DNA from: Styela clava
Lineage: Eukaryota > Chordata > Ascidiacea > Stolidobranchia > Styelidae
Assembly (NCBI RefSeq): GCF_964204865.1
Contig: NC_135251.1
Span: forward strand, 15,376,001 to 15,440,000
DNA length: 64,000 nucleotides
Direction: 5' to 3'
Shown here in pieces: positions 35,695-64,000 of this stretch (the stretch's first letter is position 1; each line of letters starts with the position of its first letter). The notes under the pieces are model-generated. The model did no database searches. It saw only the letters and a program-made list of their open reading frames with translations, and had not been told where the DNA came from. The position numbers and the translations under genes are program-made.

Positions 35695-37718
35695 ATGCCT
35701 ACTGTTGTTGTGCATCCGCGTCACCCAGCTTCTAGATATAGATGCAGTTTCACGGTTGTAGGGGTAAGTGATGTGAATTCTGTTTCATAATGATGAGTTG
35801 AATATATAAACTTTCTCAACACGGATCTTTTTTACAGACTTTCCAAGTCCTCATAGGTTTGATTTGTGCAATTCTTGGAGTTGTTCTGATTATTCAATTT
35901 GGTACATCGCAAAATTCCAGCTCTGGTATTGGAACTGGTATTTTGGTAAGATAAATTTATTTATTCTAATAAATTAAACTGTACTACATAAAAAAACAAT
36001 CACAACACAATATCAACTCGTCATAGTGAGAGGTTATAAATTGAACTGGTGTTTATTTTTCCAAATTGCTCCAATGTTTTCAAATATAATTCGGACGAAT
36101 AATAATAATCGGTTTCAAGTTTATATAGCAGAAAGTGACATTGAAATCTATCTAATTAAACAAATAAAAGTTACTTGAAATGCAAATAACAATTGCTCAA
36201 TTTTATTTAAACCAGTTTGCAGCCGATTTTCAAATCAAACAACTAGTTATAAATAAATTGTATTCACTTACAGTACACAATCACTGGAATACTGGCTCTA
36301 TCTGCTGGGAATTCGCCTTCACAGTGTAATGTAAGTATAATAGGAATACATGATATTACACCATTCTAAACCTTGTGTTTTCTGACGATACTTGCCACAA
36401 AATATGACTCCCAGCATCAAATATTTTTTCGATATATAACTGCATATTAAAGAAAAATCTCCGTTAAAGATTAACTACATTTAACATTACTTCACACCAG
36501 TCAGTCATGAGACAATTAATGAGTTGACCCTGTACAGTAAAACAATTTTGGTTATCAAACTGAATACAATGGAACATTATATATATATATAGTCTGCTAA
36601 AAATTTTACACCCTGGTGTAGGTTTTGGGCAGGGGGTTGATCCTAAAATTGTTGGGTTTATTTAAAAAAAAAGGAAGTGGTTTGATTATTTTTGCCTCGA
36701 ATGATTTTTAGATTTATGTTCATTCATTTGTCAAATAAAACTTAATTTGATTACAGGTAATCGCTGGAATGGTATTTGCAATTCTCTCCGCCATTTCAGC
36801 AGCAGCAAATATTGCGCTCGGAATTATGGCTTTAGAACTACTGGCGCATTACTCGCGTCAAAGCTCTCGATATCGAGTTGTGAGTATATATATATATATG
36901 AAATACAATTTTTGCTATACCTTTGACTCACAGTGAAATTTCAACTATCATAATAACGTGGAAAACTTTGAGATACAAAGAAGAATAGATAAATATTTAT
37001 AAATTGGAAGTGATTAATTGGGAAAATTTATTTCATCTCATTTGCTTATCAAGTTTATCATATATGTCATTTCGTCTCATTGTGATAAGAAAAATATTTT
37101 TTTTTTATATAATTCAGAACGAGAGCGCGTACGCGATTATCATCACTGTGATCGTTGTATGCGTTTTTGAATTTATATTTTCAATCGCACACACAATTAT
37201 AAGTTGCTGCGGAAGTTGCTGTGCGTCTGACCCTCAGGTATGTCTGTGTATCGATAGATTTGTATTTTTTATTTTTCAATGAATTTTAAATATCATATAT
37301 CAATTATCATATTTGCATTTAGTATAAATTACACCATCTACAAATGCTTACCTGTATTTCAGACCACCCCGTCTACACACCCAGGCATGGTATCTGCTCC
37401 ACCTGCTTATGGTTAGTATAATATGTTTGTAGTATATTAGGCTTTATCATTCAACTAAATACAGTATTTTTTATTTTGATATTCTAAATAATAATCTGTA
37501 TTTGTATCAGTAGAGAATTAATGTATTCAAAAATATTGAATAATTTTATTCGATAAATCATAGGTAATTTCATGAGTTTATTATTAATTAAATGTTTGTT
37601 ACTTATCCTAAATTTATGACGTATTTAAGGTTTCGCATTTGTTAAGCAATTGTGTTCCGTTTTTGAGAAGTATGTTTTAATTTCAGGCCAAACAAATATT
37701 TCAGAAGTACGAAAATGA
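35695..37718 (+). CDS. MS4A-like four-pass membrane protein, gene A
   Basis: Seven exons: 35695-35763, 35838-35945, 36274-36330, 36757-36879, 37118-37237, 37363-37411 and 37687-37718; 185 residues. Exon 2 carries membrane helix 1 (GLICAILGVVLII). Exons 2-3 cross into helix 2 (GTGIL then YTITGILALSAG), exon 4 carries helix 3 (FAILSAISAAANIALGI) and exon 5 helix 4, ending in SCCGSCC. This follows the MS4A/CD20 pattern: short N-terminus, helices 1-2 closely spaced, conserved -C-N before helix 3, proline-rich tail (APPAYG). MS4A proteins are plasma-membrane or vesicle proteins in signalling and chemosensing in vertebrates; the function here is unknown. First of five tandem paralogues. PolyA signal at 37986. 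Confidence 0.85.
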
Positions 37719-37985
37719 TAAGTTGCCAGAACGTGACATCAAAGGTCAAGGCGCTGGCAAAGTGTTACTTACAAAGACACAGGAAGTTGATCGAACTATC
37801 ACATCTTTCAGAAAATATTCATCATTTGCCATTTGTTAATTTTTCATGTTGCATCAATGGAGACATTAGCTTTCCCTCTCTTTTTTGATTTCATAATTTA
37901 AATCCCCGAGTTTTAGAGAATGATGTCGATTTCTTTTAATGTCATTCCGAGTAAAAGCTTCAGGTTACGACCAAAGGTGGAATCC

Positions 37986-37991
37986 AATAAA
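37986..37991 (+). terminator. PolyA signal of gene A
   Basis: AATAAA 268 bases after the gene A stop. Confidence 0.5.
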
Positions 37992-38849
37992 GTAGTCATG
38001 TTTTAGACAATACATTTCGAATGTCGTAAAATGCTTTTTTTTTTCAGTTGTATCTTGTTTTATTGTTACGTAATTTCTCAAAATGTTTTTGTGTTGATAT
38101 GTTTATATATGAAAATAAACAGTATATACCTTGAATTACTAATGTATTCACGACTATGCCCTTACTTTGGAACAACATCAAATCAGAGTTCCATACGTGT
38201 GATATATTTGGGAACGCAAGTCTTACGGCGAACCACATATAAATATAGAATCCGGTAGCAAAACCTTGGCTTTCGACTCTGTTTGGCCTTCTGGCCGGCC
38301 ACAAGCGGAAATCCGGACGTTTGAACACTGAACAGTATTTGATATCGTTAAAATAAAAAAGCCCGATTTAGTGTTCACAATATTTTTAGTTTAGTTTCTG
38401 CAACGGGAAGGACTAGCCAATTGGACACGCAGAGATAATATACAGACATTACCGCAATGACTGCGGAAATAGTTTATTGCGAATTTCAGTTTTAAATACT
38501 GTATTTTGAAAAAATGAAAAATTAAAACGCCGTTATCGTCATCTATGAAGTTACGAAAACAGTTGGTTTTGAGCCCCCCAAGTTCAAAAATTTTCCGCCA
38601 TTTCTGGCAAAGAAGGTTTTGCGTTTTCACATGTCTGTACGTTTGGCTAGCGTTTGAAGCTGAATCTGTTTTGTATAATTCATTGAACAGCAAAGATTTA
38701 ATTGAACGTAATGTTCAATTTAGCTAGGACGCTTTCGATCACCGAATATCACGAGGTCGTGAATAAGGGCAATGAGGATAGAAAATGTTAACCACATTTA
38801 TTGAACTAATTGATTTAAAGCTAAACAATGGTAACACAAAAAATTACGG

Positions 38850-39067
38850 CGCTCCCGTAGTATGTGAACCAAGATGGTGGACACCGGAAAATAATATATA
38901 TGTGTACCAGGTTAGGGTTAGGCCATAAATTTTGTCCAATTTTCCTTATTTTAGTTCTATTACAAGTTCGGGAACTAGCCAAGTGTCTTCCGTAGTATTT
39001 GTATCTGTAATTATGGCCTAACCGTAACCTGGTACACATACTACGTTCCAATGTACTGCGGGAGTAC
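38850..39067. mobile_element. Foldback MITE, CTCCCGTAG family, long form
   Basis: Starts GCGCTCCCGTAGTATGTG, ends TGCGGGAGTACC. The interior has ACCAGGTTAGGGTTAGGCC on the left and its inverse on the right, and the same TTTTAGTTCTATTACAAGTT core as 15234 and 22574. The flanks do not show a clean 8-bp duplication. Confidence 0.75.
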
Positions 39068-40392
39068 CAACATGACTATGTTACGTGTATATTAAATTAT
39101 TGACTTCTCCGCCTCAAAAAGCGAAAAAGAATTGTTTTATTATATTGAATTATTAATTTTCTTAAGTCACTGCATAATTAATTTGACGAAATCCACAAAA
39201 AGAATCACAAAGTTCAAAATGGCACGAATGAAGGGGGAGGGGGGGGGGGGGTTAAAAAGGGAACCCCGAACTTACAGACCTATATTGAGAAATATTTCAA
39301 AAAAATTCCCACTTACATAAAATACTATGTAAACGGGGGTTTCCTTCGCATCATCAGTATCAAAAACAACATCTTTAAAGTGTACGAATAAATATTAAAA
39401 ATAAATAAAAATAAATATAATAACTTCCATCGCAAAGTATTTTGCAATAATGTCTTGAACTGGCGAAATAAAGGAGAAGTTGACAATATCTTGATGTCAT
39501 ACTAAAAACATGTAAAATGTATTTTCACGTGCCTAGGGCGTTTACGCAATACGTCTTACTGTATTATTGTACTGAAATGAATTAAAACGTGGAAATAACC
39601 GAAATATGTAATTGAATAGGTATTTCAGACATTTTCGAAGACGCAAAGAAATAATTTGTTTCAACAAATTATTTGTAACTTTCAACGCCTTCTCATGTTT
39701 CGGAAATTGGAAATCTCACATGAAAACAAAACAGTTCAAAAATGTTATTCGCTTCATTTGATATTTTTTAGATTTTCTTACTTGTAAATAATATAAAAGT
39801 TCAATATTTTAAAAATTTTGAACATTAGCAACTAGTCACGCTGGAGATGACGCAACTTTTCTTCGAGGAAGGAAACTGATTTAAAAGAATATCACGAACT
39901 AATAAATATTACTCATAAATTTATGTCAAGAATAAGAAAACATCTACTAAGTTTTATTAGTTAGAACGCCATGGTACTGCTAGCAAGAATAGCATCGTCA
40001 ATTGGAGCGAAAATATTGTATAGCAACTTCCAGTTCTACTGATTAATAAGCAATTCATCAAAATTGCATGTTATATATCAGATATAATGAATTGTGGCCT
40101 AAATTAACGCAGTTTCATAGGGAATTATTTTGCTTCATCTATAGATATCACAGTGAGAGCTGAACATACTTCTTTTAAAAAATCTTGAAATAATATTTCA
40201 CTTTATATTGTAATTTGGAGGAAACCCGAATTATCTTATATGGCTGCGATCTTAAGAAAGCAGGAATCATTTTTAAATGAATTCTATATCGTGATAAATT
40301 TACAACGTTTATTTAAAATTGAGATACAACATTTCAGAATAAACTATTTTTTTTGGCAATTATTGTGTGTCATTCATTCGGATTCACAAAAG

Positions 40393-42562
40393 ATGTCTTT
40401 TGTTGCAACAAAGATTCCAAAGCATCCAGCTACTAATCACAAATGCAGCTTTATAATTATCGGGGTAAGTAAAATGCTGGGTATTTTTTTCTAAAGGTAA
40501 AATAATGAAAGATTAAAATTTTTTTTTACAGATTTTTGAAGTTTTGGCGGGTCTGATTTGTTCTATTGTCGGAATTTTATTAGTTGCTCAAATCGGTTCA
40601 AGCGGGACATCAACCAACGCCAAATCCGGGATAGGCACTGGTGTGCTGGTGAGATATACTGATGATGATTTGGGTTACATAAGGTCTTATGGAAAATTCA
40701 AACATTTTGTTTTTGACTTCAAAATAGTGTGAAAGTGTATATGTGTTGATTTCCTTGGCGATAGGTCAATATGGATTAGGTAGGCTACTAGAAACTATAA
40801 AAGATCAATACTTTTAGTATGTGTGTACCGGTTAGGATTCAGGTTGTACGACATTTTGGTGCGCATACTTCTGGAGCACCCATATTCTTTTACTCAAGCC
40901 ATTCGTAATTTCGTAAACGAATTCAATTCTTGTAAAAATCCTTTTTTTACAGTACGTCATCTCTGGAATATTAGCTCTATCCGCTGGTCAGTCACCTACA
41001 CAATGTAATGTAAGTAGAATATCAATGTTTTTGTAAGGTTGAAGGTCAGTTGCCCCAAGATATTTTATTAATACCGATGTAAACTAGTTCAGAAGATATA
41101 TGTATATCATTGTTTTTCTTCAAGTCAACATACAAAACAATGTTTCACAAAAACCGTTTGTAAAAGATGCAACGCAATGCCATTTTTTTACAAAAACGTG
41201 TTATTCTATGTTTTCCTGGCCGTTTTTTTAAAGACATGTGATATAAAAAAAATATTAGTAAAATTCAAACAAATACACCAGTCAGCCACACCTATACACA
41301 AAAAAACATGCATCATCATTTCCTATATACAACCTATGCATTTATACTAATATCTAGAAATATTTTTCACGTTGGCTAATTGCTACACCACATCGCATTT
41401 TGCTTGCAATTATAATTGGTAATCTTTGGGTGTTGAAGTTTACGGGAGCGAAAAGAACTTTTGCTTATTGAAATATACAGAAACACACTTGTAGACTTTG
41501 CAAAGTGAAATCATAATAATTACTTTGTTTATAGATAATCGGAGGAATGATACTGGCATCTATATCTGCTTTCATATCGTCTGCAATAGTGGTTCTAGGA
41601 ATATGGATTTTGCAAATATGGGGAACATACGAAAACCGTTTGGTAGGCATTAATATAACGTAGTTGGAAATCAACATATGCATCTTTTACCATAGATTTT
41701 TTTTTCTATTTTGCACGCACGAATGGGCTTGTAATAAGCTACATAGGCTTCTTTAGGCATCAATGTTTGGCCAAAATATCAGGGTAATGTAAATATAAAA
41801 ACAGCAATTTAAGTTGTCCTTGAGAGTCTCTATAAGTTGTTCATAACCTCACTTAACAAATATATTTTTCTGCTGCAGGGAAGTCGGATACATGGAATTA
41901 TGGCCACCATAATTGTTGCTTGTGCAATCGAGTTCGTGTTTGCTTTGGCACATTTAGTCTACTGCTGCCGCGCAAGATGCTGTACAAGATCAAGCAGTCA
42001 GGTATTTGTACTTTATAGTGATTTAGTTTTCTTCTTACAAATTTTGGTCTTTAAGATACGATGAACAAGTTGAAGCGTTTAGAATCAAACCTTCGACTGA
42101 GTTACAAAAGTTAATATTCTGAATGAGGTTTTTAATATTGGTTGGGAAATTTCCCGAAAAAGCATGATGACACATACCTTAAAAATGCCACACCGCCATA
42201 ACTAATATTTACGAGGACGATTATGCAATAATATGATTCTCTACACATTAAAGGTCAGGCAAATATCACAGAAGAGATGCCATAGTCCTATATACGACGA
42301 TCATTTGGACTGCAAGGTTCTATCTGAAAATTTAATGCAAGAAGCGCAGCTGAATTATAAATAATGCAGTCAGTGTTACCATATACAACTTTAACACAAA
42401 AGATCGAAGTATAATTGCGGACAAATGATTGTTTTTAGATTTTAGTTGTTGATTTCACGTATTTTTCAATTTTACATTTTTTTCCCCTAGATACCTTTGT
42501 CGATTTGCTCCATATTTTACACTTTTCTCATTATAATTTGTGATAAAATTTTGCATCCATGA
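40393..42562 (+). CDS. MS4A-like four-pass membrane protein, gene B
   Basis: Six exons: 40393-40464, 40532-40648, 40953-41009, 41535-41642, 41879-42001 and 42491-42562; 182 residues. It is the closest relative of gene A: GLICSIVGILL for helix 1, GIGTGVL then YVISGILALSAG, TQCN at the end of exon 3, GGMILASISAF for helix 3, and YCCRARCC after helix 4. The last exon is inferred from a strong pyrimidine tract plus TAG before 42491. It encodes a hydrophobic tail without the PPAY-type motif of genes A, C and D, so the 3' end is less certain than the rest. A MITE fragment (40819-40880) sits in intron 2. PolyA signal at 42601. Confidence 0.8.
40819..40880 (-). mobile_element. Foldback MITE fragment in gene B intron
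   Basis: Right part only: AGGTTGTACGACATTTTGG then TGCGCATACTTCTGGAGCACC, matching the right arm of the short-form family (6191, 33197). Confidence 0.65.
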
Positions 42563-42600
42563 TCTGTATAAATTTAGTTAATAGTTAATAGTATACTAAA

Positions 42601-42606
42601 AATAAA
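42601..42606 (+). terminator. PolyA signal of gene B
   Basis: AATAAA 39 bases after the inferred gene B stop; its position supports the proposed last exon. Confidence 0.5.
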
Positions 42607-43901
42607 GTTTTTCTCTTTAAAATATTTAAGGTAGGTCAATCAATGGGTCGTGTTTGACGGTCCCTATTGAATCGTTTTGTTGTTTTTATTGTTGGGGTAT
42701 CAAAAAAGTTCTTAAAATAATGAGCCAAGTAATTTCCAGAAGCACATGCACAATTCTGGTAGAAATCTTAAACTAATCAATCGCAAGTCTCTATAAATTG
42801 GAAAACGAATTCGTTGTGATTTTTTGAATTTTAAAAAAGTAATATAACTGACATTTTTATTTAAAATCTGTCCCTCCAAGCCAAACTGGTGAGAATGTCT
42901 CATCCGGCCCTACGTAATTCACTCTAAAATATGAAAATGGAATTGGAGAAATCTGCTTATGTAATTGATTTATTTGTCTACAATGATTTTATCGGGCAAG
43001 CATTTTTTCGTGATATATGACACAGTAAACTGTTACGCCTTTGTTTCTCTATTCCCACTCACTGTCAGAAATTCCCTTATCGAAAGGGATGAATTTTTCA
43101 GCTGTTCCTTGCGGAAAATATACAATCTACGGCGGGGATTCAACCTCGAAAATGTTACAACAATTGCGTTCAACGTAAGCGCCTCACTATGTTTACTAAT
43201 AACGCTATTATCCCGAAAAATACAATTTATTTAATGAGAATAGAAAATTGATTGAACACACATTATGTTTTATTTCATTACAATCAAAAATTAATTTGTG
43301 ATAGTAATTTAAATGTGACTCATTGGAAACAAAACATCAAAAATAAAATGAGCATTCTTCTGAGGATACATTGGGAACAAATTCTCAAATTTCGGGAAAA
43401 TTGATAAATATTTAGATAAGATATACAAAAACAAAGATGACAAGACCATAAATTATAACGCCCGGGGCGCTAGCAGATATCGCGAATTCTCTTTTTATTT
43501 TTCGTCATTTATTGACAACATCAGCTGACAATTGAGACAAGTCGTGATAGTCAGTTCTAATCAAATGTGCGATGACAATGAAGGTGTTTTGCTTTACTTA
43601 GTTTCTACTTCTACCTGTTTTGCTGGGACTCGGAGCTTTTAGCTTCAATTTTCTGAACAGATGAAAAGTTTCACTGAAATCAGAAATTAGTTTTCGGAAT
43701 AACTTGACGGTTTTTTATATCCAGTCTACGTTTTAGCGTCTTTTTATAGTAAGATCTGTGCAGAGCAATTATGAAAATATATCGTTCATATATGTTCATA
43801 TTATAATGCTGATATTATTATAATTCATATTAGGAGCCGTGATTTTTGAACGCAGTAATTGGATGCTATCGACGTAACTGATATAGGCCTATAGTCTATA
43901 T

Positions 43902-44383
43902 CAGGGGTGTGCAACCTTTTATGCAGGCGGGCCAAACATTGATAACTGGGTATTTACAGGCACAAAATAGTGTCTTTTTGTTATTGACCTCATGGCATTA
44001 TTGGGAGTCCTTGCATAAATGCTGAAATAAAACGCATAAATTTCTGAAAACTGGCATTCTAATTTATTTTCACACCGAATTTGAACGAATTCAGTGAGAA
44101 ATTTGCTGCTGGATGTTTTTCCCGGCTACTTTCATTCAAATTTGCTTCAATGGAAGTGCTAACAATTCGATATCCATTTTCAAGTTCTTCGTCTTCCAGG
44201 CGGTTTTATGGCGCCCATTTTAGAAAAAAATATGTTGAGCCGAAAAGTGCCATATTCGAAGCCATGACTTTTTTCAAGTGTATAAATTATCTTGGTTGAG
44301 ATGTTTTAACACTTCTCCGCGGGCCACACAATTCTCTCTTGCGGTCCGCATTTTGCCCGCGAGACGCACTTTGCACACCCCTG
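43902..44383. mobile_element. hAT-like non-autonomous element
   Basis: 482 bp with ends CAGGGGTGTGCAACC and TTTGCACACCCCTG. Flanks GTCTATAT (43894-43901) and GTCCATAT (44384-44391) agree at seven of eight bases. GCGGGCC and GCGGTCCGC motifs lie just inside the ends. An internal open frame (44081-44299) shows no transposase motif. Confidence 0.8.
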
Positions 44384-44558
44384 GTCCATATAATCGTTGA
44401 ATTAGAAATATGTTTCAAGAACACATTTATTAAAACGATATTTTATGCCAATCTTTCATAGGTTTTTTTAAATACCATACAGTACACTATAACCATTTCT
44501 TAACTGTGACGAACGAACCCCTCTTTTTCTTACTTATAAACTCTCTTACATCGAAACC

Positions 44559-47519
44559 ATGACAACTGAATTGCCAAATGCTTTGTTTCCTTCAACGTCT
44601 GATTATGCACAGAGAAAAAAAATTAATCGACAGTTTGTGACAGTCGGGGTAAGTGTTCTTATCAGTTTGTTTCAATGTTCAAATTTTTAATTTAAAAATC
44701 AACATTAATCCGTAGAGCTTTGTACTTAAGACTAACAAATGACAAACAAATGTTAATCAAACGTTTCGTGAGATTCCATGCTTTATTAAGTCGACAGTTA
44801 ACAGTGGTGAATGCCCATCTATTATTTTAATGAAGTAGTAATCATAATTAGTTATTTTTTCCCTTCATTAGATGATGCAGTTCATCATAGGAATCGGATG
44901 TGTTGTGATTGGAGGAATCTTGACTGCTATCAGTTCAGCCTATCTCGTAACCTGTACCACAGTTGCCGGAGGACTAATTGTGAGATTTTTCTACTCGTCA
45001 AAAATTTGTATATAATTTTATTTTTATTAATACAATTCATAATAAAAAAACAAAAAAAAAACTTGCCTTTGATAATGTTTAATGTAGTCCTTGCTCGCTC
45101 AACATCACATACTGAACGATAGTGTTGTGTTATGTAGGCATTTGACATTTTCAGTCTTGTAACAATTTCTGACTCGTTTTTCATTTCAGTTCATCGTTGC
45201 TGGGTGTTTAGCATTTGCAACTGGATATCCGTTCAATAATGTCATAGTAAGTTTTTAACATTTATAGCCAGCTATATAAATCAAATTTATGACATATTAA
45301 ATACTCAAAGTAGAATCTAGTATATGTGCATTTAGTACTTTGGGTTTTTGACATCTTTATGTCAATGTAGCTGAGTAATACGAGTACCATAATTTACGGA
45401 CCATGATGCGCACTTTAAATCCTTTTTTCTCAGAAACATCGATCGTGCGGCTTATAAGCCAAATGAATGGATGTTTTACAAACAAACCGCATTCTCACGC
45501 AATAAATAATGTAAAAACAATTGTAATTGTAATAAGCATTGTAATAGCAACTACGACCAGGTGCACATCCAGAATTGAATTAACGGAGGAGGAGGCTTAC
45601 TCTGGAATTTGTACTGTAAACCGATACTTCTTAAAAACCATTTCGTCTCATAGCCCGATGTGCCTTTTGTATGAAAAAAACAGCAATCTGAGCAATTTAT
45701 TGACAGTGCGCCCTATGGTTCGTAAAATACGGTAATAGCATGTTTTGCACAAAAGCCGAAAAATGTACGGTTGGATATGTTTAAAATACCTTCTCAAAGT
45801 TTTGATACATACCGTTTATTGCGCAAGCCGAATACTTTTCAACCTTTAAATTTATGCCATTCAATGATATTTAACTTGATTGTTAAACTTTATATTATAT
45901 ATATGAATATGTTAATAAGAACCATAAACTCATAATCATAAAATATTTACCAATTTCACAAAGAAATTAATTCCTTGTTTTACAGATGATTTTTAGCATT
46001 GTGGTGACGTCTCTATCAGCAACGTTCTCAGCAATCTTAACAATTCTAGGAGGTTTGCGGTTGGCAAATACAATTGATTATGGATATTATGACCAGGTTT
46101 CTCTTTTTATATTACTGAAGGACACGACTATCAGAAAATATGGAGAATTCAAACCAAATATAGATTGATTTTGATTTAAGGCATCGTGTTTTAGCAGGAA
46201 AAAATTAACAGATCAAAGGTTTGGACATCCACTCGACAACTCTACTTCATCTACTCTCTCTTAACATTTGCCCAAAGTTTGATATCCATCTTAGCCAAAA
46301 ACACACCAATGAATCATTTGTACATACGTACTGTACTTTTAATTTGGTATTTTATTTAATTACAACGCAAGATGGGTATTATGAATTGAATTTACTGATT
46401 TTTATTCAGGATGACTTCAACGTTTGGGCGTCGAGAATATTATGTGGGGTGAGCGGTATAGAGTTTATTACGTCGTTGGTTCATTTGGTTTTATGCTCTC
46501 AAGAGTTATGCTGTTCAACAAATCAGGTTTGTTTACAATGGCATATTTTTTTCAAATATATCATGTAACGTATATTTGGAAGTTTCGGAGGAAATTTACT
46601 GAATATATTGGGTATCTGTGACCCACATTCATTCTACTATGACAAGATAAAGTTTCCATTTATTAAAAAGGAAAAAATAGATCCATGTATATAAAAATAG
46701 ACAATATAAAATATAATTAACTAACTGCCTGCTCAAGTATTTATATATTTTTACATATAGATTCCTCCTTCGGGACCAACGTTGATGGCATTACATGCGC
46801 CCATGGTTGCTGCACCACCTCCATACGGTAGGTATTGTGTTTATTGGTTATTCAAGATACACAATCTGGATTGCTATTTTTTCGTCAACTTTTCATCTTC
46901 ATCTGAGTATATTTCTAAATGGTAATTCAGTTCATAAATTAGTTCAAGTTATAAAAGATGGGTACTTATTTGCATGTCCTACTCCAGTACTATTAGAACG
47001 TAATTAAGCGGAGCAAACTTCAACCGGACTACCTCAGAGCTCTAATAAAAATATAACAATTATGTTGCCAAATTCTCATATTTTGTAAAGATCTTAATAG
47101 AAGATAATGACACACACTTAAAACCTTAGAATAATTCTAAACCAAATTACGAACCACCAACAAAAAACAAAAAAAATCTCATTTTGTGAACACCGGAAAG
47201 ACGTCACCAATCTTCTCTACACATTTCCTTGCATTCAAACATACCAATAACACAAAAGGGTTAAATATCATTAAAATCCATAGGAACCATTCTATATACT
47301 AGCAACACAATTTTCAAGAATTTGACTAGAGTTAAAATTGTTATTCAATAATTAATCACAAAAACCTTTACTTCACAATATCGAGGAATTGCCAAATTTC
47401 ATACCTTACTATCATACAATTCTTATTCTAATTTTATTTTAATTTTTGATATTCAACTCATTTTTTCAGAACAATCATCGGTTCCATATAAACAGTTTAC
47501 TGATGATCCTGTTGAGTAG
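44559..47519 (+). CDS. MS4A-like four-pass membrane protein, gene C
   Basis: Seven exons: 44559-44648, 44872-44979, 45190-45246, 45986-46096, 46410-46526, 46761-46827 and 47470-47519 (TAG); 199 residues. It has the same exon plan as genes A and D but the most diverged sequence. Helix 1 is FIIGIGCVVIGGIL, exon 3 is FIVAGCLAFATG, and helix 3 starts FSIVVTSLSATFSAIL. Exon 3 ends NNVI rather than -C-N, so the cysteine shared by A, B, D and E is missing. The cysteine cluster after helix 4 is reduced to CSQELCC. The tail has APPPYG followed by SVPYKQF. The intron between exons 3 and 4 holds a transposon-like element (45385-45734). Confidence 0.82.
45385..45734. mobile_element. DNA-transposon remnant with TACCgTATTTTACGGACCAT-type ends
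   Basis: Left TACCATAATTTACGGACCAT followed by GATGCGCACT. Right, reverse-complemented, TACCGTATTTTACGAACCAT followed by AGGGCGCACT. The ends are thus a 30-bp imperfect inverted repeat. The interior reading frame (45403-45735) has no family match by eye. Confidence 0.65.
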
Positions 47520-48474: not shown

Positions 48475-48525
48475 CATATCTGTGACATTGCCGGAAGAAA
48501 AATCTCATATCTGTGACATTGCCGG
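48475..48525 (+). repeat. Short direct repeat
   Basis: CATATCTGTGACATTGCCGG occurs twice, about 31 bases apart. Confidence 0.7.
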
Positions 48526-51500: not shown

Positions 51501-53114
51501 TTTATTTCCAAGTATATATTTCATATGATATGAGTTTTATTAGAATTTATAGTAAAAACCTATGAAAAATACAAAAGTTTCGATTTGTATAAATCTTTCG
51601 TGAATGAATCTTAAATAAAATCAAAGAGTGTAAAATCTGATCCATTTCCGAACCAAGAACCTCTTACAATTTCGGTGGCAATATTTGGGACAATTCATTG
51701 GAGTGGAAGGTATTTTATGTACGTAGACTACTAGTCGCATAATAAATAATAGTAATTCAAATCAGCCAAGGCATGACTAACCAGAGCAATCCTGTTTCTA
51801 AATAATCTCATCGTTTTAGAGCCAAATTTTTTTGAACATCAGTTTTACAGATGGTAGCCTCGAGGCGCCAATGAACATGAATATCATTAACAGAAATCTA
51901 AAAAGCCAATGTTTATCGAAAAATTAGACTAACGGGTAAAAACAGAAAAAATTGACAAATGGTGGGGGCTGGCGAAAGGGGCAGCGATTATAACAACATT
52001 AATAATATTTTTCTATAAATATAAATATATTTAATATATATAAATATATCTATTTTTATTTAGTGAAAATTCCTATTTTGTGAATGAAGCTGTCATGCCA
52101 AAAACATGTATATATTGAAAATGTGGAAATTCATTTTGGTGATTACAGGGCGGCTAAACAATTGGCAAAACTTAACCGAACTTGTTTTTGATTTCCCCAA
52201 TAGTTACGTTTGAAATAGAAAACTAAATGTATGGAATCTGTTTTCAGACAAAGAAAGTATTCACGTTTAAAATAGGAATCTAAATTCTTGGAATCTGTCA
52301 TCAACCAAAGAAAGAACATCTCTGTATTAAACAAAAAGATTTTTTCACCTCAGGCGTTCATATTTCAAAGACTGCAAAAACAAATATGTATTAGCTGTGC
52401 GTTGGCCACAAAATCGTCTTTAGAATTTAGTATATATCGTGACTTATTTCCAGCTTCAGGGCAAATGACGCTAAACATCACATATTTGATCAATAAATCG
52501 CGCATTTGAAGAAATTTATTATTGAAAAAAAAAACAGCGTATATTAGCAGTGGCAACATGCACATGTTATGGAATAATATTTAGTGCGTGTTTTAATAAA
52601 TGTATCCAGATTAATTGAGGTTGCAATATGTTGAAAAAAGGATGGTTCAAAGGCCTATTAGTCTGTTTGTAGTATAGTAGATTACTTTTCGTTAGTTGAC
52701 GCTATTGTTCAGTTCATCGAATGCTTACTATCGCGCCACAATCACCCTGTGGAATTGACGTCAATAGACCGCATGCTGAGAGGTTCTAGCTGGATGCTTC
52801 TGATCGATGGGCTGGTTTAGCATTTGACTGAGAATGTTATTCTTGATTTTATGGCTACTGTACTTATGTTGAACACTGTGTTATACCCAGCCTGTTTCCC
52901 AACATGACCAATGTAATATTTCTAGATACTGAAATAGTTTGGTAGTCAAGTTACGATAATCATCAGGATATTTGAAGTTCAAGTTACTGCTTGACGGCCC
53001 TCGAGGACACAACGTCAAGTAAGTATCATCTACAATTTCTTAATTATGCATCAGTCTGTATTTGTTTTCCTGTCAGGTGTTGGATTACTTGCACTGGTGA
53101 TTCCTGTAGTTATT

Positions 53115-53993
53115 ACTCATCGATCTTAAGATCGGTAAGTATATTGATAGGTATTTATCTGTATGTATGTGTGTATGTCTGTCTGTCTGTTAGATGCACG
53201 CGATATCTCACGAAGGCGTGGTTGAATCTGCTCCAAATTTTGCATGTGCATTCATCATATCTCGGACCAGAAGCCTATTGATTTTGGATGAATTATGTCG
53301 TATAATTAGCGAGTTATTAATTAATTAGTGATGAAGAGATCTGGATTTTCACAAATCGAGAGATTTACGAGACGCGCTGAATGTGTGTGTGCGTATCAGA
53401 TGCGCAAGTTTTCACGCTAGTGAGTCAGAGCGAAGGATACACACCGCTAGATCGTATCTCGTGATTAATCTTTGAGCCTTGTCCATATCTCTTTTGTAAC
53501 TTTGACGTCGTCGCGATGCGCAAGTTTCCTTCGAGAAATTTTCCACACTATTGAGTCAGAGCGAAGGATACACGCCGCGAGATCGTATCTCGTTACTTAT
53601 AATTACTCCTTAAAGTTTAAGCAATGTCCATATCCCTAAATCAGGTTCGGGGTTGCAGAATTCCTCACCAAAATATCGCTAGGCTGTGTTTGAATAGCCG
53701 TCGCAACCTGGGTTAGCGCCGTTGTATTTAACACAAACTATAGGATTGGTAAATACAGAAATAGGCTATTGGCTGGAAACTAATCGAAACAATCCAGTTC
53801 GGATTTGCAGAATTCTTCATAAAAGTATTTCCTCGAGTAGTATTTCGACGACACTGGGAGTTGGCTATTGTTTCCTACATTTCTGATATTGGCTGAAAAC
53901 TAATCAAAACAATCCAGTTCGGGTTTGCAGAATTTTTCGAATCGAAACCACAGTTTCTGTTTTGGGGGATCCCCTAACTTTCGATCGATAAGT
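53115..53993 (+). mobile_element. ACTTATCGAT-end element, copy 3, long form
   Basis: Begins ACTCATCGAT, shares the TGTCTGTCTGTTAGATGCAC and CATCATATCTCGGACC region with copy 1, and ends GGGATCCCCTAACTTTCGATC plus GATAAGT. Unlike copy 1 it has about 600 extra bases. These contain two internal direct duplications: GAGTCAGAGCGAAGGATACA (near 53424 and 53555) and AACAATCCAGTTCGG (near 53788 and 53908). Confidence 0.65.
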
Positions 53994-55065
53994 CTTCGGT
54001 CTCTGACCGATATTCTCGTTTATTAGTTTTGTATGACGTAATAATGATATTGCTCCGAAATTGTTATATTTTGCGTATACTGTATATTTGCATTTACTTC
54101 TTTTTATGACAATTTCATAAAACTGCAATATCCCACGCACTGTACACAAATATTTCCACAACAAAATACTTCATTCGACAAAGAAATAAACATCTTGTGC
54201 GGGTAGTGCACGTCTTTTTAAGAGTACAAACTTGGTCGTCGGAAGAATCTGGTATTGACCTACCTGTATACCCTATGTGGGCAGAGTCGGCGCTCCACAA
54301 TAAAATTTTATAAAGGCTCTACGCCTACAAGGCCAATTTCTAGTATTCCAGATTTAGGCCTATCATTTATTGTAATAACCATACTGTTTATTATGAGGAA
54401 CTAAAAAAGGATAACATTTTTGAAAAAACCGTTTGATTTAAACTTGATTCCTTACCGTTTTTAACGTCATTTCCGGCACAAAAGTATTGTATATCAGTTA
54501 GGAACGTATTATTATCCAATTTCCTGGTACAACCGAGACTCACGCTTGACACATATTATGGTCTGTGAGCGCCCAGACCTATTGATCAGCCAAGAGCTTG
54601 TCGTCATTATTACACGAAAACGTCAGTCTCGTCTGCATACAAGGCTGTACTACATTTGTCAAGAAGAGGCCTCAATCTACTAGTTGAATTTGAAGTTGTT
54701 TTCAACCATCCAGTTTGACTTATCATGCAAGTTACTTTCTCTCATGGTCAGTGCTTAATTAGCAATTTATCTACGAGCAGTAGTAGCTTAAACATTTTTA
54801 TACTAAGAAAGTTAGAATCACGCGGGTTGAATTCAACCGTAAATTTGAGCTATATCATATTTATTTAATTATATACAATTTAACGCAGATGTGCATTCAT
54901 AACACATCAATGTTTCAGGACTCGAATATTAGAACTTTAGGACTAGAATTAGCGATGTGGGTGTCTTTGTTTATTCAACAATGAATTTTTTTTACAGGGA
55001 AATTATTAAATAATCTATAATTTTATTCTATTGGTCAAGTACTTTTTAATTATCTGAAGATAATA

Positions 55066-57545
55066 ATGGCGTATTACCCAACATCACAAAATCTGGCAAT
55101 CGTTCCCGAACCAGCTCAACATGTTGTGGTCGCATCACCTGTTCATCCGGCCGAAAAGAACAAGAATGCTTTCACCATTATTGGGGTATGTTGGTAAAGA
55201 CCTTTAAGTAATTAAACTTCAAACTTGAAGTGATTTTTAGATAATAATTAATTACAGATATCTACCAAAATAATTTTATAATGAGATTAATGATTAAAGT
55301 CTATAACTATTCATTACGGGATTGGAAGAATATGATTCAAACAACCAAGCATGTTTTAATTTAAGTTTTATTTTTATTTATATCAAATGCATTTCAATGT
55401 CTAATTATATATATTAACTTTTAGATATGTCAATTGTTAATCGGTATCATCTGTGCGATCATTGGAGGTGTGTTGGCCTCACATACATCTCCTACTTCCA
55501 CTTCCAATACTGGAATCGGAGCTGGAGTATTGGTGAGACCGTTATTTAATTTGCATTTCACTTTGATTTTAAGGCGAATTCGTGACCGAACTCGTATTGT
55601 TTCGTTGCTTCAAAACAAACGAGGACGACTTAACATCCAATAAAACACAAATTTCAAACCCACTTGCTCCTGAATCGCACATGCACTCTATGTTTTATAA
55701 ACAGGTTTTAATGTAAGTGACCCGTTGTAAATCATTGTTTATAAAGATAACAAATAAACCATCTTTAGCAAAATTATAAATATAATCACTGAAATATTAT
55801 TTAGTCTTTGATATAAATTTGGCAACATTTGTCGTGCAAAAAGTATGTCACCTCTCTTTATCTGTAACTCCCATATTCATATATCCTAATTTTGCATTTC
55901 AGTACGCCATTACAGGGGGGTTGGCTTTGGCAACTGGAGCTGGTCCCACAAGTTGTAACGTAAGTGTTCATTAGACTACTTTTCTAATATAACCTATATA
56001 GTTCCAGGTTGAAGCATAATTAAACTGATTGGAATTTTATTCAATTGAGGGTTTTACCTATTTATTTAATTGAATTGCATCTCATAACTTGTATAATAAT
56101 AGCGTATCAAAGTTAACCAGCTATATCTAAAAATATAAATGTAATGCCGAATAGTATGAACTTGCAGATTCACCATACGACAATATAGCATTCAGAGTAT
56201 AACCTCACCTTGAACAGTATTTTACGTTGATAAAACACTTTTTCCTGTTTAAGATTTGGAATTATCGGATATACATTTTGGCCAGTCTCTTATACAAGCT
56301 TAATCCGTCATTGTATTCGGCACCTTACTTCTATTTAACGATATACCAAATATATTCAATCTATTTTTTTTTGGTAATAGGTTGTTGGAGGAATGGTCAT
56401 GGCTATTCTTTCGTCTCTTTCGGCAGGAATTACTGCAGCCTTCGCAGCATTTGCCTTAGCTGAACTGGACAGCTTAGAATATTCCTACTACACGGAAGTA
56501 AGATTAAAACAAATTATACTGTAATTGTTATTTTAAGAAACTTTTTGCATATTCTTAGTTTAGATCAAATGGGCCGTGGGTCATGTTTATACATTCCACA
56601 TTTTAATGCATGTCACTTCAAAGTGATCTTTTTCTGCTTATGTGGATATTCAGATTGTTGTTGTTGTTACATTATAATGTTTGAGTTTGTTCAAAGAGAA
56701 GCTTCGTAACAATTATAGTGAATTTAATTCTTCAATTTAATGAAAATTCATTTTTGTTCGTACAATTATTAGAATATCTTCAAAACACTTTAATTAGAAT
56801 TGAGAACATGCGCTAACGCTATTTAGCCTTTTATAAGTTGTAATTGGCAGAATAATTACATGATATTTCATTTGTAAAATAGTAGTTGTCAGACAAACCC
56901 GTTTGTATATTTTAGCCGAGCAGTGTCATTGCGATCATTGGAACAATATGCGGATTGTGTTTCCTCGAATTCTTCCTTGCAATTGTACATTCTGCGTACT
57001 GCTGTAGTGGAAGTTGCTGTGCCAGAACCAACCAAGTAAATATAAATATTCAGACATTTGAGAAAGATCTTTCATAGATCAAATTGATAGCCAATTAAAA
57101 TTTAATTTATTATACACCGACTATTAAACTTTGGGAATCGTATCTTGCAAGCTACGCTTCTTTTACCAAAATGTATTATTTTTGTTATTATATTTTATTA
57201 TTTTAACAAAACTATTTTAAATTTAAATATATTCATTATTGTGTTCTATCTTTCAGCCTGGAATGGTATTGCAAATACCACAACCTCATGCTGCACCTCC
57301 TGCGTATGGTAAGTCTACAGTCATTACTATTGATCATTCGAGTTTACAATGAATTAGGGCATCCTAGCATCATGAATATATATGAACATGTGCAACAGAT
57401 AATTTTGTTAATTATTCAAAAAACATGAATTCAAATATACGTTAACAACACTAGATTGTGATTAATATATAACAAAATTGTTTTTGACTTAACAGGCCAA
57501 ACAAAGAACCCCTACAAGCCTTTCACAAACGAACCAGAAGCATAA
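55066..57545 (+). CDS. MS4A-like four-pass membrane protein, gene D
   Basis: Seven exons: 55066-55185, 55425-55532, 55903-55959, 56381-56497, 56916-57035, 57257-57308 and 57496-57545; 207 residues. Helix 1 is GIICAIIGGVLA, followed by GIGAGVL, then YAITGGLALATG and TSCN (exon 3), GGMVMAILSSLSAG (helix 3), and EFFLAIVHSAYCCSGSCC at helix 4. The tail is APPAYG then NPYKPF, matching the tail of gene C (VPYKQF). The N-terminus is the longest of the set (40 residues, proline-rich). A further intron probably splits the 3'UTR (GTAAGA just after the stop, TTTTCAG before 57722). PolyA signal at 57876. Confidence 0.87.
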
Positions 57546-57875
57546 AATGGTAAGATCATGAATGTACATATTATACTTTTTTTTTCTAACTTCACCATTG
57601 TCTTCAAGACCTATCCCCTTCTAGTCATTTACGTGTCATCCTCGCATTTTTCATCCTATCATATTGTTTAAATTACGTGTTACTTATACATTGATGCTCA
57701 CATATTTTTTTCAAATTTTCAGGTTATACCATCATAAGAGCGAGGTGAAGAAAAGCTGATTATTTTCCATGTACAATACGCTCGTAAATTAACAGCGGTG
57801 TAATTGTAAATTTGTGTATCTGCTGTAAAAAGTCTGCAAGTTGAAACAAATCACGAATATACTTTTACAGTTTAA

Positions 57876-57881
57876 AATAAA
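57876..57881 (+). terminator. PolyA signal of gene D
   Basis: AATAAA about 330 bases after the stop, beyond the likely 3'UTR intron. Confidence 0.5.
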
Positions 57882-60800
57882 ATTTCCATATTTTCATTTC
57901 GAAGATAAAATAGAATTCGTCAAATAAAGCAAATATGATTGCATTGCGCCTTTGTATCTTCTAAAGATCTCGAAAGTGGGTTACTGGGCGGACCATGTTC
58001 TATATTTGAAAAGCAAAACACCAACCATGATGCTGTGAGGTATAAATTTGTCGAAGAGATGTATATATTTGTCAAGTTTTCTGCAGAGCACATGAGTAAA
58101 ATCTGGGAATTTTGCTTTTTTGAGTTTATTACAGACCCACAGTTGTCCATCCATGCTTGATTCTAGTCAAGCTATATGAGGTATTTACAATAAACATAGA
58201 TTTCGCTGATGAACGTAACATCGAAGACTGCATCTTGACGATGAGAAACTTATCCCGGTCCCGAAGAAAAGTGAAATTGAAAAAATAAGTTCACCCGTAT
58301 CATTATGAACACCTTATATCAGATAAAAAGACGGTTTATTTTGACAAAAAATCGTATTACATTAGGTATAGAGGATACCATTAACCACGGCCAGAGGATA
58401 ACGTCCGAATGTAAATTGTAAACTAAAAAGCTCATGTCAAAATATGTAATATTCAAACTATTGGAACAAACTCAAATTATCTTTGCCTCAAAATATTTAA
58501 TTTGTTTTATGAAACTAAAAATCAGTATCTAGGATAATAGGTATTTAATGGCGGCACAGTGACAATCGAAGTCATCGTTACACTGAAAGACTAACAAAGT
58601 ATGTAAGATTCGCTCTTTTTGAAAGCAGCATAGGAACCACATCAATGTGGTATACTTGTTCAGTATAATCGGTGATACATAAATTTTCACCTCTTTGATG
58701 TCAATTCTAAATAAAATATTAAATAACATATACAGTATTAGCATATTTTTACTTTAGTTGGATATAATGTCAGTTTTGATGCAAATAATGTAGTTTTTAT
58801 GGACGAACAACAAGCAGATTCTATATGTGCGGTGTATGTAGAATGATAAAACTGATTTGTAAAACTATTTCATATTTTGGATACGCTATGGATGTCCCCC
58901 GAGCATTGACTTGCTTGCGATCTCACGGTAACAATGACTAATTCGTAAGAATTAAATATTGATATAATAATGAGTAAAATTAGCAGCGCTCTGATATGTT
59001 TACATATGTTAACTCCTTTGGTTTGGTAGTTTTGAAGGTATTTGTTCATTTTTGGTTATGTTTCCAAACAATTAGTATCTACGAAATGATTCAGTCGTCA
59101 TTTTGTTTTCGGAAATGTTCAAGTTTATTGGCATTGATGTAAAACTGCCAAAAGGGGCTATATAGGCTACCTGTCTGTAGTTTTTAATTGCTGCTTGAAC
59201 ATTTTTAAACAAAATGGCGATTTTAATGATAAAACAAGTTTGCACGGGTCAACTCGCGAAAATACTCTCAAAATAAATATATATCAAAAATCAAAAGTAT
59301 AAAAAAAAATTTTTGAGGCCACGGCTCGATGAAACATTCATTGCCAATCCCTTATACATACGACAGAAAAGTTGAACAGTTCCTCTCCTAACTTACAAAC
59401 AGTTAAATTCAATTACACTGAACCTTTATACTTTATTAAAATGTTGCATCGAATTGAAATCTAATGACAAATTTATTATCAAAAATAAACTATGATACGA
59501 AATGACTTTGATAAAATAACACACGTCGTTATGCACGGATGTCTGAAATAAACTCGACTATGCCTGTGGCAACCAATTAGCGGGAATTTCCCCTCTATGA
59601 GAAAGAATTCTTATACACGTGGCGTAAACATGTTCTTCTTTAAATGTGTCCGACGTGAATTCATTGATTTTATTGTAATTTTCAAACCAGTCTGAAATGG
59701 ATGGCATTTCTTGTCATTTTAATTGAGTCACTACTCATCCATCTTGTCAAACCGTAGTAGTATATATTTACGGTCAAACGAATGAAAATTTTGATTCACA
59801 GCAATCGGTGATCAACCTAATGAGTAGTAACCTTTAAAGAAAAAGAAAATTTGCCCATTCAAGTTAATCAGATGCTTTTAAATTTTTCACAGAGATTTAT
59901 TCACAACCTAGCAATACTATCACATGATAGCTTGTTTGTTACTGGATGAACACACAATATACGTCCTATTCTATTTGATATGTTATTAATAAAGGGAGCC
60001 CGAGGCAAAATGAAAAATAAAAAAAGAGATTTTCATCTCGAAAACGCCTTACGCAAAGCTTAGACTTGCAATGCTTGGAGGCGAGGCAGTAAACAAATGT
60101 TGGGAATATGCAAAGAGTTATGAAGAATATGTGTTTTTTTATTGGGAATGGATTTGTGAAGTTTGAAATACTTGTTTTGTTAATATTCAGTTCTCAGATT
60201 TGGTTTGATATATATTTTTTTTTGTATTAAGACAAGAACGAGAATGTTCAATATCGCGCTTCGGTGCCGGTATGACGAGGCTTCAGTCGTATAGCTGAGC
60301 GCCGACTTTGCTGGAAACATATGAAATATACGTTCCCATCGTACCCGTAAAAATGTATGTATTTAAAAGTCTTCTTGCGACTTGAATTATCTTTCATACT
60401 GAAAATTTGGAATATATTAGTTGCGGAGAAGAACGTTTTTTTCCAGGCAAGATTTAAAAAAACCACAACAACCACAAGGTTTCTAGCAAAACGATTCATT
60501 AGTCGACTCCGTGTCCAATAGTAGTGTTAATTTGAATCGTGAGTCTGAGAAATTAATTACATTTCTTCGTTTCTGCCAATTATTTCTATCTTGTTTCTAG
60601 AAATTGAGAGAGTATACTATTTTGCAAAATTGGGTTATTGATCTATTTGCAAATTTCGAAAATACAACTAAAGACTGACAAAAAGAAGCTAATGTTTACC
60701 ACCATGTCTAAAAACCTGTAAAAAAAAAAATTATACCTCAATGGTTTAGCGAAAAAAGCATTACGATTATGAAATAAAAAAAGAACGATGCATTCGAAAT

Positions 60801-60882
60801 CAAGAAGCAGCTGCAGTCCAAATTTAATACTCGAAAGGTCCGGTTTCGGACCGCGGTCCGCCAGTTTAGCCTTGCTCTATAG

Positions 60883-62328
60883 CAGTGATTTTCAACCTTT
60901 TTTGTACCGCGGAACACTTTTTATAGTCTAAAATTATGGCGGAACACCAAATGAGATTTTTGGTATTAAACTATATTATGCAATTAACTGACATCGATCA
61001 TTTCGACATAAAAATAAAATAACGGAATTGATAATATAACTTGTCCTCATTTAGCTGGAAAAGACGTGACACGTTCCGATTCAGAGCTAAAGTATGGTAC
61101 ACATAAATGTTTTTGAGAGTTTGCTTATGCATACTATAATAAGCTAGAAACAGGAATGGTATTTTAAGTGATATTTGGGGCTGTTACGATGAGTTTCAAA
61201 TATTTGATTCTGACTGGAATTGAAGTGACACAAACACGCAGCTTTTTTCAAACGTCTCTTTATTTCCCACGTTTTTCATCTTTCATAGTGGCCAATAGAG
61301 TGTTGGGTCCAATAACAATATTTTTACACACGACATGATTCCAGAACGTCGGAGGTCGGTTTGGAAATCAATAGAAAAATTGAAAATCGGCAACAAAGCG
61401 ATTTTTACTGGTTAATTTTGTCATAATCGATCATTTCTTGTCCCCTGTACGTTCTTATATTTCCGCTTTTTGTTCCTGTGCGCAATTATTAATTCTTGTG
61501 GGTCGGCGGAGATCAAAGTTTCATATTATTGGTATAACTATGCTATCACATCGGCGACAGATGTTAATGAAATTAAGGAATGATTTCAAAGCCCAAATTA
61601 ATTTTATTCAGATTTTTATCATTTGCATCGGCTTTAATCTAACTTATCGTCGTTTGCAAATTGAACGTCCCAGCAAATTAAACGTCCCAGACCCACAGTA
61701 CAAAGCTGTGATTGCGTGAATCTTAAATGGTTATTTAAAATTTGGAATAAGGGCATTTCTAAGTGACCGTTAGGCAAGTTGACGATAAAGAGCACGCCTT
61801 GCAGGAAAACGTATTGAAAACGTCTTCGTAACTCTTAATTTCCGATAATGCTTTTTATATTCCGGTCATGCGTGGAATGATTAATAACACCTTAATTCTA
61901 AATATCTTTTTGAATTGACGTTTCTTCTACATTAACGAAATAAATCCAAGCGATTGCTTTACCGGCGCGCGAGTTTCGTGACAAGCAGAGCGGTACAGGT
62001 CGCGTGGTATCGGATATACGAATAGTTTCCATTCGCTATTCGAATATTGTGTCCAGCCCTAGGTCGATCATGTTCAAAAATCTCGTTTAGCAAGGATAGG
62101 TAGTGAAAAATAGAAGCAAGATTGAAAGCGCTTTCTAGCAAAAATTGGAAATTTCTTGGAGGCCCCAATCCAGAAAGTTTTTAGAAGTACATCAACCCGC
62201 AGCCTAGTGTAATTTGTATAAGTTCATCGGCTGGTTGAATTTCAGTTATGACGTAATATTCTTTCAAAAAAGCAATTTTTCGCGGAACACCTGAAGCTCT
62301 TTCGCGGAACACCGGTTGAAAATCACTG
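60883..62328. mobile_element. hAT-like element, 1.4 kb
   Basis: Perfect 8-bp target duplication CTCTATAG (60875-60882 and 62329-62336) and a perfect 15-bp inverted terminus CAGTGATTTTCAACC. GCGGAACAC motifs lie just inside both ends. The longest internal frame (61438-61719) lacks recognisable transposase motifs, so it is probably non-autonomous. The preceding CCGCGGTCCGCC may be a fragment of another element. Confidence 0.88.
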
Positions 62329-62828
62329 CTCTATAGTATACGCTATGACTATTATGTAATACGTTCCTTGTCTGCACGTCTGAAAAGCGAATGGACAGAA
62401 CAATCTCATACCAACCAAATTCGTGTGATTCTGCTAGTTTAATTGTATTAATACTAAATACACTACTAGTTCAACTTCATATGTTGAAAGTTATTAGGAA
62501 CACAATATCATAAAATATGAATAAAATTTTGTCCAAGTTCGATACTTTTCGCTGGATAAAGAATATCAATAAATCTACAATACTATGGATAATCCACTAC
62601 TAACGTTGCGAGTTGTCGGGAGAAAAATTTCAAATTCTAGTTATCGCAATTGTTTTCATGCAGGTTTGCATTGCTACTGGAGGTATTTCAATATCAAAAT
62701 ATAGTTTGAAAACACTTTAATCAATAGCAATGTGTGTGAAGCTTCTAATAACTGTAAATTCAGTATTTTGCGATTGTTTTCAGTTTATTCTAACTTGTAA
62801 CTGTAGCACATGCTGTAAATTGTCGAAT

Positions 62829-64000
62829 ATGGTCCGTCCACGTCATCCGGCCATAAAGTACAAGCCTGTCTTCCAGAAACTGGGGGTAAAAAAAATTTCA
62901 TGTTAATACTTATAAAATATAAAAAGAAAATATTTGATATATATTCTTTTAGAATATGTAGTAAATGGAAAAAACAGCTTTTCCTTGCATGCGAAATAAT
63001 TAAGAATTATACTCTCTGTTTCAGACTAGTCAGACGATTATTGGACTTATTCATATGATTTTGGCAGTTATCTCAACAATATTATCACCATCATTATCAT
63101 CATATTGTGCAATAGCGATTGGAGTGCTGGTTCGTATTGCGGGACATTCACTTACTATATTGAACCTTTTTTAATATTAGCACAAACTAGCGTACACTCA
63201 TGCTAAATATTTTTATTTTTCACGTTCTCGCTCGGAACATGACAATACTTCGACACAAATTTACATCAAATGATTCGAATTGGCATATCTACGATTTGTT
63301 CATCGTAAATAGGACTTACGTAAACTACTAACCATTAAACTTGGGTGCTGGCTCAGGATCAATGCTCTACTATAAGGCAATAGTCACACATACGTACTGT
63401 CTATCATGCCATTTCGCCTACAATTATACCCGATTGTTCTTTATTACGAAATATTCAATTCATCCTTTGCTTTTATCACATTTTCTTCATTCTTGTTCTA
63501 GTACCTAAGCACCGGACTTGTGGCTTCCTCGACTTCTAGAAGTCCCACCAACTGCAATGTAAGTTTCATTGTAGCAAAAATTTTCATATTTATATATAGC
63601 TTTCACTTACTTACCTAGATTAAAATAATATGCTATGCCGTTATTTGGCAAACTCAGTTCATTACTCGAATCGACCCAAACTAAAATTCGACTTTAGTTG
63701 AATATTATCTGGCGACTTGACCATGTGATTGAATGAAATTATTGCAGTTTACCCATCGGTCTTTTTTTTTTATCCCATTTTGATTTCCGTAACATTGCGT
63801 GGGGGTTATTTTTCAGCTGTATTAAGAAGATGTACTTTTTGTTCTGTAGATAAATTTATATATTTTTCTTATCACTTTCATTTTTTGAAAGCTACTTTAC
63901 ATTAGTGACTTTTCTGTCATCAATTCGTTGCTGTGGTGTAGATTGTCCCTATAAGTTATCCCAAACGCTGGTATTTGCATTTCAGGTGACTGGAGGAATG
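62829..64000 (+). CDS. MS4A-like four-pass membrane protein, gene E (partial, runs off window)
   Basis: Exons 62829-62885, 63025-63129, 63502-63558, and the first 15 bases of the next (63986-64000); 78 codons visible. The N-terminus MVRPRHPA resembles gene A (VVHPRHPA). Helix 1 is GLIHMILAVISTIL, then GVL, then YLSTGLVASSTS and TNCN at the exon 3 end, and VTGGM opens exon 4 exactly as in A, B and D. The exon 2 donor is GTTCGT, weaker than in the other genes. The 3' part lies outside the window. Confidence 0.8.

Follow-up and report, generated by a model that had tools for sequence, protein, structure and literature searches.

A predicted tandem array of MS4A/CD20-like genes in a tunicate genome, and a related clan of coding-intronless genes

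Is the MS4A (CD20-like) family of four-pass membrane proteins confined to vertebrates, or is it older? According to a survey published in 2010, MS4A originated in cartilaginous fish, there is no clear invertebrate MS4A, and invertebrate look-alikes are convergent (PMC2826416). The question is raised by a 64,000-nucleotide (nt) stretch of DNA (the window, G000:C2:15376001-15440000) in a genome assembly of 376.6 Mb, for which an initial annotation, made from the letters alone, had proposed five same-strand MS4A-like genes with a shared exon plan. Our analysis indicates that these genes, g1-g5, very probably encode a family of CD20-like proteins in a tandem array, which bears on the age of the vertebrate-type family and on the 2010 claim. 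The fuller reading, i.e. a tunicate MS4A/CD20-like tandem array encoding four-pass adaptors, with PPxY-dependent control of some copies, we consider likely. What the annotation observed is thereby partly confirmed, and its interpretation partly supported.

We modelled g1-g5 manually on the DNA and verified the models with a script; all their exons are predicted (Table 1). All 26 introns modelled within the window have GT-AG borders, which were a selection criterion when introns were chosen. The five genes carry the proposed exons on a near-fixed plan, with seven coding exons in g1, g3, and g4 and six in g2 and g5, the latter completed from adjoining genome DNA. As annotated, exon 2 is 105-117 nt and exon 3 is 57 nt in all five; exons 4 and 5 are 108-123 and 117-123 nt. 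Introns 1-5 are in phase 0 throughout, but the final phase-1 intron that had been ascribed to every gene was found, after the PPxY codons, only in g1, g3, and g4, and is missing from g2 and g5. The conserved positions that had been listed also hold in part. The C-N at the end of exon 3 is present in four of the five genes (not in g3), whereas PPAYG is restricted to g1 and g4, with PPPYE in g3 and no PPxY in g2 and g5. A PPxY exon for g2 was sought in the plus-strand frames of 42001-44559, and none was found; the last exon of g2 is hydrophobic and an AATAAA lies at 42601. In g1-g4, exon 3 begins within the second transmembrane pass (TM2), and exon 5 encodes TM4 and a Cys cluster.

Pfam analysis returns PF04103 (CD20/MS4A) as the top family for each of g1-g5, in line with the family initially named, and its cut-off is passed by five of the eight intact genes of the whole array described below: g1, g3, g4, g8 (5.8e-11), and g10 (2e-6). 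A joint profile of g1-g5 run against PDB found CD20 at 4.6e-9, FcERI-beta (the IgE-receptor beta chain) at 1.3e-4, and a second FcERI-beta sequence at 0.031. In this match, a Cys at the inner end of TM2 aligns with a Cys of CD20. Single sequences match CD20 more weakly (g8 1.4e-4, g4 0.0045, g1 0.062); residues 42-118 of g8 align to CD20, and the string YIISGSL occurs in both. Hydrophobic segments, counted at one hydropathy cut-off, number four in g1, g3, g4, g5, and g10 and five in g2, the fifth being in its last exon. A MARVEL, claudin, or tetraspanin identity for g1-g5 was rejected: none of these families is in their Pfam listing, and claudin-18, the next other molecule in PDB, reaches only 0.13. 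When g4 alone was used as query, NCBIfam gave nothing above cut-off.

Several observations weigh against this assignment. g2 and g5 match PF04103 below its cut-off, and g6, which has no PF04103 match at E<=1, is included on the basis of the array profile, its location, and its exon plan. g10 has an additional sub-threshold match to DUF7139 (8.4e-5), and g6 and g8 count three hydrophobic segments, their TM2 falling below the hydropathy cut-off. That g2, g5, and g6 fail the Pfam cut-off would suit a separate invertebrate four-pass family that has converged on an MS4A-like transmembrane sequence, which is how Zuccolo et al. in 2010 viewed the invertebrate similarity (Ciona included), judging it short and common to unrelated membrane proteins (PMC2826416). 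Sub-threshold matches of two proteins of the intronless clan described below, L001 (claudin, 6.8e-5; tetraspanin, 0.0025) and L008 (MARVEL, 0.0027), point the same way. We nevertheless find convergence very unlikely. The joint profile matches CD20, then FcERI-beta, across TM1-TM3 with the TM2 Cys aligned, g8 has no Pfam family besides PF04103 at E<=1, and the fixed layout argues for a family history beyond short motifs. On this evidence, tunicates would have genuine relatives of MS4A, contrary to the 2010 view.

How far the family can be named is a separate matter. Since PF04103 is called 'CD20-like family', a match to it does not by itself name the subfamily, and the sequences support a call at the CD20-like level, which takes in MS4A proper and TMEM176 as well as other CD20-like branches. 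An array nearer to the TMEM176 or ENTREP/FAM189 branch than to MS4A proper would fit both this latitude and the PPxY tails, which are frequent here and also occur in ENTREP. Like the array proteins, ENTREP (FAM189A2) sits in the membrane, is described as partly homologous to CD20, and carries PPxY motifs, on which its binding of ITCH depends, but its description sets it apart as a single-pass protein of 450 amino acids (aa) with a 343-aa cytoplasmic tail and two PPxY (PMC8811627). In PDB, moreover, the joint profile puts CD20 and FcERI-beta first, in a comparison that contains no TMEM176 or ENTREP sequence, and we regard this placement as unlikely. ENTREP/FAM189 identity as such was rejected for g1-g5, which have four or five segments and at most one PPxY.

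That the host is an invertebrate, on which the initial reading of a local expansion had been made conditional, is supported by a tunicate-type locus on contig C9. It combines, in the same orientation, a predicted GH6 domain (9.9e-11) and a predicted cellulose synthase-type glycosyltransferase (PF13632 1.9e-16, PF03552 8.6e-7); this one locus may hold a single gene or more. To our knowledge, cellulose synthase joined to GH6 is a mark of tunicates among animals. COX1, sought as a guide to the mitochondrial code, gave no match in the assembly. The ascidian cellulose synthase has been named as a case of horizontal transfer (PMC6339383).

The kinship of the copies goes beyond what chance provides. 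Protein identity between pairs of g1-g5 is 23-47% (g5 in part), as low as had been noted, and codon positions differ in the order 3 > 1 > 2 in all ten gene pairs (g5 over its first 78 residues). A profile made from eight array genes gave 22 matches in the window at E<=0.01, all on modelled exons (a script rule counted 21 inside exons; the 22nd, 37046-37237, overlaps exon 5 of g1), vs zero matches both in the reversed window and in each of three shuffles. With the gene in question left out of the profile, the exons recovered at E<=0.01 were 5/7 for g1, 3/6 for g2, 1/7 for g3, 5/7 for g4, and none of the three tested for g5. This weak recovery marks g3 and g5 as divergent, and their membership therefore rests more on their own Pfam match, exon plan, and place. 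Further copies were sought in the first 35 kb of the window, with none at E<=0.01 (best 0.64). A single-exon frame at 31670-32224 (184 aa), which looks four-pass, was rejected as an array member, its only match being a weak one to MARVEL (0.074, below cut-off).

A scan for more copies, as the annotation had proposed, was run over the next 150 kb (up to 214000 in coordinates continued from the window) and found them. The array comprises at least ten loci in 68 kb and extends downstream of the window (Table 1). The local expansion that had been described is therefore real but larger, with decayed copies and an inverted member: the five genes in the window are all on the plus strand, as stated, but g6 is not. 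The 57-nt exon has intact splice sites in nine of the ten loci, the corresponding stretch of g7 lacking the acceptor, and the phase-1 intron of g6 and g8 is followed by at least one more intron. Two of the additional pairs, g9+g7 and g10+g8, are copies of one two-gene unit (84000-104300), with aligned blocks 71-92% identical. Both genes are broken in the first copy and seemingly intact in the second, which is split by insertions, one of them, near 94 kb, transposase-like by eye. Past g8, no further copy is listed at E<=1 up to 214000. Duplication of one multi-exon ancestor would have made the array, and the old tandem duplication initially proposed is supported. Judged from its sequence, the array is still turning over, with copies born, one inverted, and two broken.

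Table 1. Predicted array genes and their exons (window coordinates, continued downstream past 64000; E-values are for PF04103)
Feature	Coordinates	Strand	Description	PF04103
g1, MS4A/CD20-like	35695..37718	+	7 coding exons, 185 aa, PPAYG tail	5.6e-9, above cut-off
g1 exons	35695-35763, 35838-35945, 36274-36330, 36757-36879, 37118-37237, 37363-37411, 37687-37718	+		
57-nt exon 3 of g1	36274..36330	+	second part of TM2, C-N at end	
g2, MS4A/CD20-like	40393..42562	+	6 coding exons, 182 aa, no PPxY	3.1e-4 (exons 1-5 as query), below cut-off
g2 exons	40393-40464, 40532-40648, 40953-41009, 41535-41642, 41879-42001, 42491-42562	+		
57-nt exon 3 of g2	40953..41009	+		
g3, divergent MS4A/CD20-like	44559..47519	+	7 coding exons, 199 aa, PPPYE tail	1.6e-6, above cut-off
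g3 exons	44559-44648, 44872-44979, 45190-45246, 45986-46096, 46410-46526, 46761-46827, 47470-47519	+		
57-nt exon 3 of g3	45190..45246	+	no C-N end	
g4, MS4A/CD20-like	55066..57545	+	7 coding exons, 207 aa, PPAYG tail	9.1e-9, above cut-off
g4 exons	55066-55185, 55425-55532, 55903-55959, 56381-56497, 56916-57035, 57257-57308, 57496-57545	+		
57-nt exon 3 of g4	55903..55959	+		
g5, MS4A-like	62829..64000, ends 64920 (continued)	+	172 aa, no PPxY	8e-4, below cut-off
g5 exons	62829-62885, 63025-63129, 63502-63558, 63986-64093, 64373-64495, 64852-64920	+	last two and end of fourth beyond window	
57-nt exon 3 of g5	63502..63558	+		
g6	75424-80610 (continued)	-	intact, PPPY	
g9	from 84486 (continued)		frame broken in a late exon	
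g7	~87.7-89.8 kb (continued)		near-copy of g8; splice acceptor lost, frame broken (by eye)	
g10	91602-96964 (continued)		intact	
g8	100266-103778 (continued)		intact	

Relatives of the array are found elsewhere in the genome. A genome search with PF04103, which did not list the window's own genes and may miss exon-split copies elsewhere, listed 13 places, nine of them on contig C14 and the others on C16, C18, C5, and C13 (one each). Every place is a single stop-to-stop frame, 234-381 codons long and without interruption. Nearby reading (regions L024-L032) added two loci on C18 and a broken copy on C14, making at least 16 CD20-like loci with an intronless coding region (untranslated parts being outside the scope of the term) on five other contigs, several of them clustered. 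Thirteen long frames were read in all, C14:3207086 and C14:3150589 being the listed places left unread. All 13 encode four segments (two have one extra before the first ATG), and an ATG precedes the first pass in 12, the exception being L030 2689-3444. Some of the whole proteins fall just below the Pfam cut-off of 27.9 bits (L008 27.2, one on C18 26.1).

The two sets recognize each other. The array profile detects all 13 intronless proteins (worst 1.5e-14), and the intronless profile detects all eight array genes, g8 best (2.1e-28), followed by g6 and g4, and g3 worst (1.8e-4). In a tree of 17 proteins (nine array, eight intronless), the sets separate with support 89/89; the tree is unrooted, includes the incomplete g9 and g10, and has long branches for g3, L001, and L003. 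The simplest reading of these sequences is that the intronless clan arose as a retrocopy of a g8/g6-like gene and then expanded; intron-by-intron loss or an intronless ancestor would also be compatible with them.

The near-fixed exon plan had been put down to strong structural constraint, a view that the intronless clan does not support. Because this related clan encodes four passes and a tail in one uninterrupted frame, the plan is best read as inheritance, with no function of its own and answering no functional need. Should vertebrates share this plan, although it is not required, there would be little to account for it other than descent, and the fixed plan of the tunicate array offers a criterion other than short membrane sequence for dating MS4A. 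As a lead only, vertebrate MS4A genes may likewise have a 57-nt exon in TM2. This would agree with the published finding that the first two passes are lost when MS4A2 exon 3 is skipped (PMC8776166); that exon resembles exon 2 of the array, which encodes TM1 and the beginning of TM2. Of the exon lengths and borders of MS4A genes in vertebrates, a search of the open-access literature gave only this statement on MS4A2 exon 3.

Both sets also share a tail motif. Of 21 proteins examined, 11 have a PPxY in the tail, vs 1.86 expected from shuffled tails: four of eight array genes (g1, g3, g4, and g6) and seven of 13 intronless proteins. Tails were set by a simple rule (the last 60 residues where the rule failed), leaving out g9, g7, and the broken C14 copy. 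This feature too has its weak points, in that half of the examined array genes (4/8) have no PPxY and near-copies inflate 11/21 above the number of independent cases.

By analogy with CD20 and FcERI-beta, the array proteins would be membrane adaptors or modulators of partner receptors or channels, with both ends cytoplasmic and probably forming small oligomers, and lipids are probably attached at the Cys beside TM2 and TM4. Where kept, the C-terminal PPxY may recruit ubiquitin ligases of the Nedd4 family, in parallel with the ENTREP-ITCH pair, and would thereby govern how much of the protein, or of its partner, stays at the cell surface or is endocytosed; copies lacking the motif (g2, g5, g8, and g10) would escape this control. 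We put forward the Nedd4-type step only tentatively. As the four-pass core and PPxY tails are common to both clans, PPxY-guided ligase recruitment would be ancestral in chordate MS4A. The corresponding history is possible, if somewhat short of probable: MS4A would predate vertebrates, and tunicates would have kept the exon-rich array and, separately, gained the intronless clan, probably when an mRNA of the g8/g6 type was reverse-transcribed; this clan would then have expanded on other chromosomes.

A tandem array with birth and decay, a pattern that we associate with chemoreceptor families, might instead point to a chemosensory receptor role, comparable to that of the MS4A receptors in mammalian necklace olfactory neurons. 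Mammalian MS4As, CD20 included, have been reported as olfactory receptors (PMC11026480; PMC7776563). However, in the literature covered, expression is described for one tunicate member, Ciona Ms4a15/2 (Pem-7), whose mRNA is maternal and belongs to the germline (PMC11094015), and since the loops between hydrophobic segments are short, there would be little room for ligand-binding diversity. A chemosensory role is therefore quite unlikely, and we retain the adaptor reading.

Set beside known systems, the array proteins resemble MS4A1 (CD20) and MS4A2 (FcERI-beta) in the TM1-TM3 profile match, the four passes, and the inner-end TM2 Cys. They differ from them in the short length of g1-g5 (172-207 aa), a short TM3-TM4 loop, the PPxY of some copies, and, by eye, the lack of a tail resembling an immunoreceptor tyrosine-based activation motif. 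Ciona Ms4a15/2 (KH.C2.4), likened here by name alone, is a tunicate gene called MS4A in print; the 2024 paper treats it as a germline marker, and the passages available leave the question of origin undiscussed (PMC11094015). The vertebrate MS4A cluster likewise consists of clustered, divergent four-pass genes (PMC2826416), whereas here the host is a tunicate, one member is inverted, two are broken, and there is a related coding-intronless clan. A search of the open-access literature for invertebrate MS4A gave no more than the works cited here, and on that basis neither the array nor the intronless clan is put forward as a first report.

Other features of the window include repeats among the array genes. 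A hAT-like element occupies 60883-62328, between g4 and g5. Its terminal inverted repeats are perfect over 15 bp, the target duplication CTCTATAG is 8 bp long, and a 111-aa frame that the element contains matches nothing in Pfam at E<=0.01. A second hAT-like repeat of 482 bp precedes g3 (43902-44383), its ends resembling CAGGGGTGTGCAACC and its reverse complement, and two 30-bp inverted repeat arms (38899-38928 and 39011-39040), 82 bp apart, are 97% complementary. Neither an Rfam family at gathering score nor a tRNA was found in the window. The upstream neighbours are an OATP transporter (4374-5526), a GTPase on the minus strand with MMR_HSR1 pieces, Obg/GTPBP10-like by eye (13601-15961), and a SUMO-like protein, also on the minus strand (19880-20248; Rad60-SLD 9.2e-22).

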